Assembly: GCA_014138725.1 (NCBI GenBank)
Contig: JACJID010000001.1
Span: 1,984,001-2,048,000, forward strand
Length of the DNA stretch: 64,000 nucleotides
Source: Kutzneria viridogrisea
Lineage (GTDB): Bacteria; Actinomycetota; Actinomycetes; Mycobacteriales; Pseudonocardiaceae
Reading direction: 5' to 3'
Shown here: in pieces, positions 33,476-44,911 of the stretch
Numbering within the stretch: the stretch's first letter is position 1
Layout: each line of letters starts with the position of its first letter
The notes under the pieces: generated by a model
What the model saw: only the letters and a program-made list of their open reading frames with translations
What the model was told of the DNA's origin: nothing
Database searches by the model: none
Position numbers and translations under genes: made by a program

Positions 33476-34216
33476 GTGACCAAGCCATTTCTTCTCGCCC
33501 CTGCGTCGATAGGGCTCACGCAGGCTGTTCTCGATGAACACGGATATGCTCTGATCAAGGACGTCGGCGGCCAGGAATCGGCCGCAGGATTGCTGCGCGA
33601 AATAGGTGAGCTGATCCCGCAGTACCACGGGACGCTCACCCACGAGGTCACCTACCGGCCCGGCAACGAGGGGCGCTCCTACTCGCAGAGCGTGAACACC
33701 ATACTGGCGCACACCGAGGCGCCCGGCTGGGACCCGAGCCCTGCCTACCTCGCCCTGTTCTGCCACCAGCAGGCCCGCTGCGGCGGCGGTCACACCGACC
33801 TGCTCGACGTCGAATCCCTGCTGCCCCGCCTGGATCCCGCCCAGCTGGCCCTGCTGACCGAGGCCGAACTGGACTTCCCGGGCACCGGGCCGCGGCCGGT
33901 GCGCACCCCGATGCTGCGCACCGACCCCGAGGGCAAGCGGCTGCTGAGGTTCAGCTTCAACCTGCTCACCAGCGGTGACTACGACCCGCCGCTGGACTCC
34001 GCCCCCGCCGAGGAGCGGCTGCCGCTGGGCGCGGCGGGCCGGGAACTGGCCCACTTCGTCAGCGACTGCTTCCAGGAAAACCGCACGAGCATTCTCATTC
34101 CCGATGACGCACTGCTCATCTGGGACAACCAGCGCATGCTGCACGCGCGGTCGAGTTATGTCGACCAGGGTCGTCACCTCACCCGCTTCTGGATTTCGGA
34201 CAGGAGGGCGGCGTGA
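33476..34216 (+). CDS. Fe(II)/2-oxoglutarate oxygenase, clavaminate synthase-like (HxE type)
   Basis: 246 residues from GTG 33476, six bases after GGGGA. The jelly-roll iron site is visible as H79-T-E81 (in [10 protein letters not shown]) with the distal His223 in [11 protein letters not shown], and the 2-oxoglutarate-binding Arg is R237 (HLTRFWI). An HxE rather than HxD triad marks the clavaminate synthase/AsnO/VioC group, which hydroxylates free or carrier-bound amino acids at the beta carbon. It is somewhat short for that group (usually ~320). First gene of the operon, overlapping the next by four bases. It probably hydroxylates or desaturates an amino-acid building block. Confidence 0.82.
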
Positions 34217-35202
34217 CTGTGGAGGACAATTTCGTCCACATCCCGGGGCTGCCTTCATTCGATCCCGAGGACCTCGCGGAAAGCGCGGTCATTTCCCGGC
34301 TCGCGGGCAATTGGCGCCGCCGGGCCACCGTGAAGCGCGACGAGCCCGATCTCGACGAGCTGTTCGACCTCTCGCGGTCGGACTACCCGGAGGGGATCAT
34401 CCCCTTCCGCGACCACGACAGCTGGCGCGGGCTGCCCGACCACACCCGGTCACGACTGCTGAGCTGGTCCTGGATCGCCTACAACCGGCACACCGTGCTC
34501 GCCGAGCAGCGGGTGGCCAACCCGGCGTTCGCGCTGGTCATGGAGGGGGAGTTCCCCGGCCTCGGCGGCCAGGACATGGAGATCGCGCTGGCCCAGGCGA
34601 TGGTGGACGAGCAGTACCACACGCTCATGCACATCAACGCCAGCGCGGTCACGCGGCGCAAGCGGCAGGCCGAACTGCCCGACGCCTGGCTGCCCGAGTC
34701 GCACACCGCGCGGACCCACCGGCGGCTGCGTGACGGTTACCCGGAGCGCTGGCAGCGCAGCCTCACCACGCTGGCCTTCGCCACGGTCTCGGAGATCTCC
34801 ATCAACGCCTACCTGGACCTGCTCGCCGAGGACCAGGACATCCAGGTGATCAACTCCACCACCGCCAAGCTGCACAACCGCGACGAGTACTGCCACGCCT
34901 CGATCTCCGACGAACTGGGCAAGATCGTCTACGAGGTGCTGGACCCGGACCGCAAGCGGTTCTTCGTGGACATGCTCGTGGCCGGTCTGGAGGCGTTCGT
35001 GGCCACCGACTACACCACCTGGGAGCGCATCCTCGAGATCGAGAACGTGCCGGACTGGCAGCGCATGGTCCAGGAGACCAGGGAGGACACCAGCAGGGCC
35101 CGCCTGGTCCGCGACTACACCGGGCTGCACTCGCTGATGTCGGAGATGGACGTGCTCGACCAGGTCGACTTCGACTGGGGCAAGTCGGTGGTGAACAAGT
35201 GA
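34213..35202 (+). CDS. AurF-type diiron N-oxygenase
   Basis: 329 residues. All seven iron ligands known from AurF can be placed at the same spacing: E98, E133 and H136 (VDEQYH), E194 (VSEIS), H221, E225 and H228 (HNRDEYCH). AurF-family enzymes oxidise amines to hydroxylamine, nitroso or nitro groups; homologues in HamC/MgoC-type pathways act on amino-acid-derived amines. Here the gene lies between an amino-acid hydroxylase and an aminomutase, with GTGA coupling on both sides, so N-oxidation of an amino acid is the most natural reading. The substrate is not known. Confidence 0.85.
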
Positions 35203-36509
35203 CGCTGACCGTCGAGTCCGAGCCCACGCTGCGGACGATCTCCGGGCGCAGGCTGCGTGACCTGGTGCTGGACCGCACCGGGGACTCCTCGCTGGCACAC
35301 GAGGTGGACGTGGTGTCGCAGGTGCTGCCGTTCAAGGTCAGTTCCTACGTGGTCGAGGAGCTGATCGACTGGGGGCAGGCGCCGGAGGACGCGATGTACC
35401 GGCTGCTGTTCCCGCACCGGGACATGCTGCCGCCCGAGGACTTCGCCGCCGTGGAACAGGCGATGCGCGCGCAGGACCGGGCCGGGCTGCGGGCCACCGT
35501 GGACGGCATCCGCGACCGGCTCAACCCGCACCCCGGAGACCAGCTCGCGCTGAACGTGCCGCAGTCCGAGGACACCGACGGGTGGGGGCTCCAGCACAAG
35601 TACCACGAGACCCTGCTGGTGTTCCCGCGCCAGGGACAGACCTGCCACAGCTACTGCGGTTACTGCTTCCGGTGGGCGCAGTTCGTGGACCGCAGCGACC
35701 TGCGGCTGGCGGTGTCCGGGCCGGAGGTGATGACCCAGCACCTGCTGCGCCACCCCGAGGTCACCGACGTGCTGCTCACCGGCGGCGATCCGCTGGTGAT
35801 GCGCACCGAGCTGATCGAGCAGTACCTGCGCCCGCTGCTGCGCCCGGAGCACGAGCACGTGCAGACCGTGCGGATCGGCACCAAGGCCGTCTCGTTCTGG
35901 CCGCACCGCGTGCTGGCCGGTCAACAGGCCGAGGACCTGCTCACGCTGCTGTCGCAACTGGTGGCCGCGGGCAAGCACGTGGCGCTGATGCTGCACCTGT
36001 CGCACCCGGCCGAACTGGCCACCGACGCCGCCCGCCGGGCGCTGCGCAGGCTGGCCGACACCGGGGCCGTGCTGCGCTCGCAGGCCCCGGTGGTGCGGCA
36101 CGTCAACGACGACCCGGACGTGTGGGCGCGGCTGTGGAAGGACCAGGTCCGCAACGGGATCGTGCCGTACTACATGTTCGTCGAGCGGGACACGGGCGCG
36201 CGCCGGTACTTCGGGCTGCCGCTGGCCCGCGCGCTGGAGATCTACCGTGGCGCGGTCAAGGGGCTGTCCGGGCTCGGGCGCAGCGCGCGGGGGCCGGTGA
36301 TGTCGGCGTCGCCGGGCAAGGTCGCCATCGACGGCGTCGTGCAGTTGCACCAGGGACCCGCGTTCGCGCTGCGGTTCCTGCAACACCGCGACCCGGAGCT
36401 GGTCGGGCGGCCCTTCCACGCCGTGTTCGACCCGGTCGCGCAGTGGTGGGACGAGCTGCGCCCGTACAGCGAGCACGACCGGGAGTTCTTCGCCGGGGCG
36501 GCCCGATGA
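35199..36509 (+). CDS. KamA-family radical SAM aminomutase, divergent (not lysine-type)
   Basis: 436 residues. The radical SAM cluster motif CxxxCxxC is at C149, C153 and C156 (CHSYCGYC), and the PLP-binding Lys is probably K374 (SASPGK). The enclosing [16 protein letters not shown] and LTGGDPLVM blocks are those of lysine 2,3-aminomutases. However, the two Asp residues that hold the lysine side-chain amine are replaced: R330 (PYYMFVER) and A370 (VMSASPGK). An Arg at the first site would suit a carboxylate, as in glutamate 2,3-aminomutases. It likely makes a beta-amino acid by 2,3-amino migration. GTGA/ATGA coupled to both neighbours. Confidence 0.85.
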
Positions 36510-44430: not shown

Positions 44431-44437
44431 GTACGAG

Positions 44438-44911
44438 GTGAACGAGGTGGAGAACAGCGTGAGCGAAGTGCAGTTCAGGCGGGCGAGGGAGGCCGACGTC
44501 GCGGCGATCGTGGCGATGCTGGCCGACGACGTGCTCGGCGCGACGAGGGAGTCCCCGGACGACCTCAGCCCGTACCTGGCCGCGTTCAAGGACATCGAGG
44601 CGGACCCGAACCAGTACCTCGTGGTGGCCGACCGCGAGGGCGAGGTGGTCGGCACCATGCAGCTGACCTTCCTGCCGGGGCTGTCCCGCAAGGGCGCCAC
44701 CCGCGCGCAGATCGAGGGCGTGCGCGTGCGCGGCACCGAGCGCGGCACCGGCCTGGGCTCGCAGCTGATGACCTGGGCGGTCGACCAGGCGCGGTCCCGG
44801 GGCTGCACGGTGGTCCAGCTGACCTCGGACACCGCCAGGACCGACGCCCACCGGTTCTACGAGCAGCTCGGGTTCACCGCCAGCCACCTGGGCTTCAAGC
44901 TGGCGCTCTGA
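44438..44911 (+). CDS. GNAT N-acetyltransferase, possible self-resistance
   Basis: 157 residues if GTG 44438 is used; GTG 44459 is an alternative. Classical GNAT: VVGTMQLTFLPGLSRKGATRAQIEGVRVRGTERGTGLGSQLMTWAVDQAR (acetyl-CoA loop RGTERGTGLGSQL), then TDAHRFYEQLGF. Seven bases after the second ligase, so probably the last gene of the biosynthetic operon. It may N-acetylate the product or an intermediate as protection, in the manner of streptothricin or related acetyltransferases; that is inference. Confidence 0.82.
   Translation: MNEVENSVSEVQFRRAREADVAAIVAMLADDVLGATRESPDDLSPYLAAFKDIEADPNQYLVVADREGEVVGTMQLTFLPGLSRKGATRAQIEGVRVRGTERGTGLGSQLMTWAVDQARSRGCTVVQLTSDTARTDAHRFYEQLGFTASHLGFKLAL

Follow-up and report, generated by a model that had tools for sequence, protein, structure and literature searches.

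What might an operon make that brings an N-oxygenase, an aminomutase, an epimerase and two ATP-grasp ligases together with neither a non-ribosomal peptide synthetase (NRPS) nor a polyketide synthase (PKS)? The question is raised by eleven same-direction genes at 33476-44911 (+) in a 64,000-nucleotide stretch of the Kutzneria viridogrisea genome (GenBank contig JACJID010000001.1, positions 1,984,001 to 2,048,000; hereafter the window, in whose coordinates the features are given). We letter the genes A to K in order: a TauD-family oxygenase (A), an AurF/CmlI-type N-oxygenase (B), a KamA-family aminomutase (C), an enolase-superfamily epimerase (D), an LDH2-family dehydrogenase (E), an ATP-grasp ligase (F), a FemX-fold transferase (G), an aminotransferase (H), an MFS exporter (I), a second ATP-grasp ligase (J) and a GNAT acetyltransferase (K). 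A first-pass annotation had described a tight operon of ten genes with a trailing GNAT gene, and all eleven were recovered in place, with 4-bp overlaps at seven of the ten junctions and gaps of 16, 14 and 7 bp at the other three. The families that it named agreed with Pfam and NCBIfam, with KamA and the first ATP-grasp protein resting on NCBIfam and Protein Data Bank matches instead. It had also noted the absence of NRPS and PKS genes, and no such domains were found in the 23 window genes scanned with Pfam (the 11 operon genes and 12 others). A defence role was also considered, and PADLOC gave no matches for the five of the eleven operon proteins submitted. Our answer, which we hold with about as much belief as doubt, is that the operon is an NRPS-free pathway that makes and exports a small peptide with a glutamate-derived, β-N-oxidized amino acid at its core. 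We infer the substrates, step order, oxidation level and product from the enzyme families, catalytic residues, conservation and modular variants that were observed.

The gene set is real, conserved and modular. A KamA search of 390 genomes of the family (E ≤ 1e-40) found the gene in 33, including two of the seven same-genus genomes listed. Thirty of the 35 match places were taken as short loci of about 3-4 kb each (L005-L034), where other operon genes appeared only in L005, L006, L007 and L012. At the 20 KamA places examined at 20 kb, genes A to J were found in L035 and L037, a four-gene part in L036, and KamA alone in 17. A TauD alignment scan of a species-genome collection gave 29 loci, which were sorted by gene calls and tblastn. 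Eighteen of these hold the ligase-containing operon (type I). Six, all in Streptomyces, are type II, which lacks the ligases and comprises an AraC-like regulator, TauD, KamA, EamA, AurF, LDH2 and the aminotransferase. One locus, in Umezawaea, is type III (TauD, KamA, LDH2, aminotransferase and EamA). AraC and EamA were recognized by Pfam in L066, and the labels were carried to the others by BLAST clusters. The residual loci are L068, which is decayed and has a KamA fragment, L077, which has TauD, KamA and EamA only, and L080 and L083, which are without KamA. Relatives of ligase J (E ≤ 1e-60) occurred in 18 of the 29 TauD genomes, exactly those with the other type I genes.

Together with the window and L037 (genome G383), type I was thus found in 20 genomes, which span at least six genera and show identities of about 35-92%, and the conservation beyond strain and genus that the annotation had proposed as a check was evident. 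The carriers are Rhodococcus (5), mycobacteria (3), Streptomyces (6, one over two contigs), Streptantibioticus (2), Nocardiopsis (1), Kutzneria sp. CA-103260, the K. viridogrisea window and G383. Genes A, B, D to H and J are each present in 20 of 20, and KamA and the MFS gene in 19 each. The operon without KamA is that of Nocardiopsis, where a stand-alone KamA elsewhere in the genome shares 51% identity with that of the window; in S. xanthochromogenes, the sequence examined showed no MFS gene. Because the set recurs in 20 genomes in an order that is the same save for small differences, chance is not a reasonable explanation. When ligase F was searched in 397 genomes of the order, three matches were obtained: the window and two distant ones (36% and 33% identity), with no relatives of A to E within 20 kb of the latter. 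Two other loci with distant relatives of ligase F (L123 and L124) each hold three ATP-grasp-like genes, and L124 also has an MFS gene and a radical-SAM-like protein. Many type I operons (L055, L073 and others) also carry a conserved protein of ~190-290 amino acids between the aminotransferase and the MFS gene, with no Pfam match in the one tested; it was not seen in the Kutzneria or Nocardiopsis operons.

The identity of the central residue depends on KamA, gene C (35199..36509). The protein had no Pfam match and matched TIGR00238 at 107.7 bits, under the 199.2 cut-off, and lysine 2,3-aminomutase (LAM; 2a5h). Its radical S-adenosylmethionine (SAM) motif CX3CX2C (C149, C153, C156) is invariant in four aligned sequences and in the rows of a further alignment. 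K374, which we take to be the lysine that binds pyridoxal 5'-phosphate (PLP), aligns with the Lys of a lysine-type KamA in the same window. In the alignment to 2a5h, R330 stands at the position of LAM D293, the Asp that binds the side-chain amine of lysine. Identity as a lysine 2,3-aminomutase was rejected, as this Asp is missing, TIGR03820 scored 99.8 against 525.4 bits, and the protein contrasts with the lysine-type KamA of the window.

Another substrate is suggested by the KamA genes found near PKS genes. Six of the 20 KamA loci at 20 kb (L043-L047, L054) combine a gene for a VinK-like acyltransferase with two for adenylation enzymes and one for a fold-I PLP enzyme; L048 and L053 have only one adenylation enzyme and the PLP enzyme. 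Pfam recognized PKS modules, VinK_C, AMP-binding, a carrier protein and Aminotran_1_2 in L043, and the other PKS-type loci were assigned by BLAST clusters with it. This gene set matches the layout of 3-aminobutyrate macrolactam pathways, in which, according to passages of two papers (PMC11284099, PMC10662134), the role of idnL4 was confirmed by disruption and β-glutamate is an intermediate. The motifs xxRDTG and RGPxMS around R330 and the PLP lysine, picked after viewing the alignment, occur in 42 of 42 KamAs from all contexts. Operon KamAs share 46-57% identity with the eight PKS-labelled rows, six of which come from loci with a VinK-like gene; kinship to IdnL4 is drawn via these PKS-locus enzymes, which stand in for IdnL4 itself. 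In a KamA tree (44 rows), whose root is unsure and whose outgroup branch is very long, the type I KamAs of Streptomyces, Streptantibioticus and G383 join stand-alone and PKS-locus enzymes (100/100), apart from those of Kutzneria, Rhodococcus and mycobacteria. From these comparisons, one KamA reaction across all contexts would be the simplest reading. The operon KamA probably acts as an IdnL4-type glutamate 2,3-aminomutase, and the key residue would therefore be derived from glutamate.

Two observations on other KamAs may be recorded here. The second KamA of the window (60672-62084, -) keeps the lysine-type Asp, and its neighbors past the window end resemble, by eye, 3,5-diaminohexanoate dehydrogenase and lysine 5,6-aminomutase subunits, as in a lysine-degradation cluster. 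IdnL4-like KamAs without a PKS set nearby (L038-L042 and L117:9537-10898) are possible makers of the osmolyte β-glutamate.

The fate of the shifted amine is indicated by A, E and H. Gene A (33476..34216; Pfam TauD) encodes an Fe(II)/2-oxoglutarate oxygenase with the HxE facial triad H79/E81/H223; H223 is present in 33 of 33 aligned rows and H79/E81 in 29, the other four being gapped there. Gene E (37567..38586; Pfam Ldh_2) encodes a 2-hydroxyacid dehydrogenase, and gene H (40980..41936; Pfam Aminotran_4) a class IV, IlvE-like aminotransferase that matches NF005146 at 296.2 bits, over the cut-off of 279. Both E and H stand beside TauD and KamA in each of the 20 type I loci and of the seven type II and III loci (KamA being absent in Nocardiopsis); L077 is an exception. 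In L080, a TauD relative adjoins a flavin mononucleotide (FMN)-dependent 2-hydroxyacid oxidase, and the same oxidase family lies downstream of type I in 8 of 8 Streptomyces and Streptantibioticus loci and in 0 of 4 others (Pfam-checked in L106). That the oxygenase travels with enzymes oxidizing 2-hydroxyacids suggests that TauD hydroxylates C2 of β-glutamate, as we predict. Since the dehydrogenase and aminotransferase accompany TauD and KamA in these type I, II and III loci, the α-amine is probably put back, which would give a β-N-oxidized α-amino acid and not a plain β-amino acid. The annotation had expected a small peptide with a β-amino residue; the peptide, with its N-oxygenation, aminomutation, epimerization and ATP-grasp ligation, is retained in our reading, and the β-amino residue is replaced by a glutamate-derived one whose α-amine is probably restored.

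The oxidation of the β-amine is assigned to B (34213..35202; Pfam AurF), a ferritin-like diiron protein. It is 64% identical (196/306) to 5hyg, which has the same sequence as 5HYH and is named as CmlI in passages of PMC8840469 and PMC13108848. All seven diiron ligands (four Glu, three His) are present in 14 of 14 aligned B sequences and are the same residues in 5hyg. The model for 4-aminobenzoate N-oxygenase gave 195.7 bits, below its cut-off of 620, and B is closer to CmlI. Type II B proteins are 46-50% identical to that of the window. In the B tree, CmlI falls inside the clade of Kutzneria, Rhodococcus, mycobacteria and Nocardiopsis (98/98), its nearest-neighbor support being weak (86/69) on a long branch and AurF being the sole outside sequence. 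The products described for diiron N-oxygenases of this family, in part of PMC12154687, carry nitroso, nitro or nitronate groups. By analogy with CmlI, a nitro group is the likely predicted product of B.

Assembly of the peptide would fall to F, J and G. Ligase F (38583..39791) was below Pfam cut-offs, and a profile of 14 relatives matched the L-amino acid ligase 4wd3; J (43159..44430) has ATP-grasp_4 and LAL_C2 domains. BacD and dapdiamide synthase models matched the operon ligases below cut-off, and both F and J match the L-amino acid ligase family. G (39788..40963; Pfam FemAB_like/Acetyltransf_6) was modeled with AlphaFold2 from 15 sequences (pLDDT 86.1) as a tandem-GNAT fold. Fold matches were led by FemX (ranks 1-6, E = 3.9e-12), followed by Sbb17 (rank 7, 3.6e-11), then MprF-type enzymes, with Sba18 at rank 13 (1.5e-10); identity to FemX, Sbb17 and Sba18 is only 11-16%. 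Sequence profiles were weak (mS105, E = 0.018; the aminoacyl-tRNA-dependent peptide synthase 9wqw, Sbb17, E = 0.53). From its predicted fold, G is probably a peptide synthase-like transferase that uses aminoacyl-tRNA. The annotation had seen a FemAB-like protein capping the product with an acyl group; we set this aside as less likely on the fold search, in which FemX matched best.

The epimerase D (36506..37570; Pfam MR_MLE) carries K155/K157, D181, E207, D232 and D304xD306, and the KxK, metal-ligand and DxD residues are kept in 19 of 19 rows (two rows from one genome). We take these to have the roles of the dipeptide epimerase signature. D scored under the cut-offs of named epimerases and racemases (DgcA, 164.4 vs 400; PRK15129, 107.8 vs 343), and among the models and structures that it matched best are N-acetyl-Glu racemase, L-Ala-D/L-Glu epimerase and a protein labelled muconate cycloisomerase, in keeping with a Glu-like residue. 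Because D has dipeptide-epimerase residues, epimerization probably comes after ligation. The possibly D-configured residue of the annotation keeps its enzyme, with a revised timing. D has 354 residues in the window, against 406-516 in 15 of the 18 relatives called; in L037, the one tested, Pfam identified the additional portion as a GNAT. Gene K (44438..44911; Pfam Acetyltransf_1) is a possible self-protection enzyme; going by the genes called, three other carriers have a close relative (E < 1e-20) next to the operon. We considered whether K might be the GNAT portion split off from the enolase fusion and rejected this: the similarity was weak (at best 33% identity across 99 residues, E = 2e-5), and both K and a long epimerase occur in L075 and L078. 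Gene I (41933..43144; Pfam MFS_1) completes the set.

We propose the following route. KamA would turn L-glutamate into β-glutamate by shifting its amine from C2 to C3, and TauD would hydroxylate the freed C2. LDH2 would then oxidize the 2-hydroxy acid to the 2-oxo acid, on which the aminotransferase would install a new α-amine to yield 2,3-diaminoglutarate. B would oxidize the β-amine, most likely to a nitro group, giving 3-nitroglutamate. F, J and the FemX-type G would couple one or two ordinary amino acids to this residue, the dipeptide epimerase D would set one α-center, and I would export the peptide, which K may acetylate for self-protection. The product is possibly an antibiotic. A bolder form of the proposal is that TauD, KamA, LDH2 and the aminotransferase constitute a new relay from an α-amino to a vicinal 2,3-diamino acid, that with the CmlI-like enzyme it makes 3-nitroglutamate for peptides of the nitropeptin kind, and that CmlI was recruited from an older aliphatic nitro pathway; we offer this tentatively, thinking it somewhat likelier to fail than to hold.

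Several observations weigh against the proposed route. The glutamate 2,3-aminomutase model TIGR04368 gave KamA 83.7 bits, far under its cut-off of 650, and the substrate of CmlI is an arylamine. H is IlvE-like and could supply another residue. The Streptomyces-group type I loci have the FMN oxidase besides LDH2, which may act otherwise there, and the 17-kb contig of L077 carries TauD and KamA but neither LDH2 nor an aminotransferase. The TM-scores of G were moderate (about 0.5-0.57 by query length), and its fold also matched tandem acetyltransferases, less well, from rank 29 on. Finally, Kutzneria and Nocardiopsis join type III in the E and H trees (support 0.95-1.0) and Rhodococcus and mycobacteria in the B tree. 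By this conflict the gene sets have been reshuffled, so the variants may not all make one product.

One alternative is a glutamate peptide pathway with a different end. The nitrogen could finish as a hydroxylamine, oxime, nitroso group or isoxazolidinone, to which a β-hydroxylamino acid could close, or the α-amine might not be reinstated, LDH2 and the aminotransferase making the partner and the residue being an N-oxidized 2-hydroxy-β-glutamate (both changes may also apply). Such an outcome is in line with the range of groups that the family forms (again the part of PMC12154687 cited above) and with the TauD-KamA-EamA trio of L077. However, LDH2 and the aminotransferase stay with TauD and KamA in seven of the nine ligase-free loci having KamA sequence, where no partner residue would be needed; the remaining two are the decayed L068, which keeps both genes, and L077. 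In addition, CmlI, the nearest solved relative of B, makes a nitro group. We therefore regard this version as doubtful, if the most serious of the alternatives.

The substrate itself could also differ. If the KamA substrate were, say, a branched-chain or hydrophobic amino acid, and H acted on its usual kind of 2-oxo acid, a different 2,3-diamino or β-nitro acid would result. H does pass the branched-chain transaminase cut-off, and the identity between operon and PKS-locus KamAs is only 46-57%; nevertheless, the active-site motifs, including the Arg at the LAM D293 position, are found in all 42 KamAs, type I KamAs sit at two places among the stand-alone and PKS enzymes, and the best epimerase matches include Ala-Glu and N-acetyl-Glu enzymes. 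We judge this improbable. Still less probable, to the point that we would be surprised by it, is that B acts on an arylamine and the operon yields an aryl-nitro compound. The closeness of B to CmlI, the position of CmlI within the clade of type I B proteins, and matches of H to aminodeoxychorismate lyase models, below cut-offs, speak for it. By contrast, none of the operon genes passed a cut-off for aminodeoxychorismate or p-aminophenylalanine enzymes, and type II B proteins accompany the same TauD-KamA-LDH2-aminotransferase core. The glutamate-derived, β-N-oxidized residue is the reading that we carry forward.

Upstream, the operon is parted from a unit of an M24 peptidase and an AsnC/Lrp regulator gene by a terminator-like hairpin with a stem of 20 pairs after the regulator gene (33032..33075, +, consensus match); two such hairpins were found in the region against 1.4 expected. 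Sequence search revealed two copies of a palindromic operator-like site, TGTGATCCAGGTCAC (33286..33300, -) and TGTGATCCTGGTCAC (33356..33370, +). Both sites (TGTGATCCWGGTCAC) lie 106-190 bp ahead of the TauD gene, and the 14-base core GTGATCCWGGTCAC has only two exact copies in the 10.25-Mb genome, both upstream of the operon. Of the 28 upstream regions scanned in relatives, four (L079, L078, L081 and L074) contain a looser 16-base palindrome with 2-4 mismatches, roughly 120-150 bp before TauD; its conservation as a candidate operator is suggestive only. Downstream, a TAP-like α/β hydrolase gene with a signal-peptide-like start, judged by eye, lies at 44954..46441 (+), and its membership in the operon is uncertain. 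A TAP-like hydrolase adjoins the operon in Kutzneria sp. CA-103260 too, though the genes beyond differ. In S. tricolor, lasso-peptide-like genes (by eye) directly follow the TauD-KamA-EamA trio (L077:12678-17135).

How does the operon compare with known systems? Bacilysin, dapdiamide and similar dipeptide antibiotics are made by NRPS-free ATP-grasp routes, and the operon shares with them this design and the L-amino acid ligase family. It differs in its warhead chemistry and in having two ligases together with a Fem-type transferase and a dipeptide epimerase. G has the predicted fold of FemX and of Sbb17 and Sba18, two peptide synthases that depend on aminoacyl-tRNA, at the low identity given above, its use of tRNA being a prediction. 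B shares with CmlI of the chloramphenicol pathway 64% identity and every diiron ligand, whereas the CmlI substrate is an arylamine and no chloramphenicol-pathway arylamine genes were recognized in the operon. The incednine 3-aminobutyrate starter pathway (IdnL4/IdnL3) is alike in that KamA relatives in such loci share the active-site motifs and in having β-glutamate as an intermediate, according to a passage of PMC11284099. There, β-glutamate is decarboxylated and loaded onto a PKS; here it would be oxidized, re-aminated, N-oxidized and ligated.

A known compound may nevertheless belong to this gene set. Nitropeptin, a nitro-bearing dipeptide antibiotic, is credited to S. xanthochromogenes in a passage of PMC5138215, which cites Ohba et al. 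(1987), and S. xanthochromogenes JCM 4612 (L076) carries the operon. Judged by title and species, the possible link between operon and nitropeptin stands, in our opinion, at roughly even odds. The annotation had called the operon undescribed; this holds for the pathway, as no description of the gene set was found among the matches listed in the open-access literature (subscription papers lying outside the search), while the product may be known in nitropeptin. The pathway is a new form of NRPS-free peptide biosynthesis, each of its enzymes coming from a known family. If our reading is correct, it would show how enzymes can make vicinal diamino and aliphatic β-nitro amino acids, would provide a genetic basis for testing nitropeptin-type compounds, and would hint at the origin of the nitro-forming enzyme of chloramphenicol. 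The three natural gene-set sizes make the order of steps directly testable. It would also explain an orphan gene set common to Rhodococcus, mycobacteria, Streptomyces and Kutzneria.

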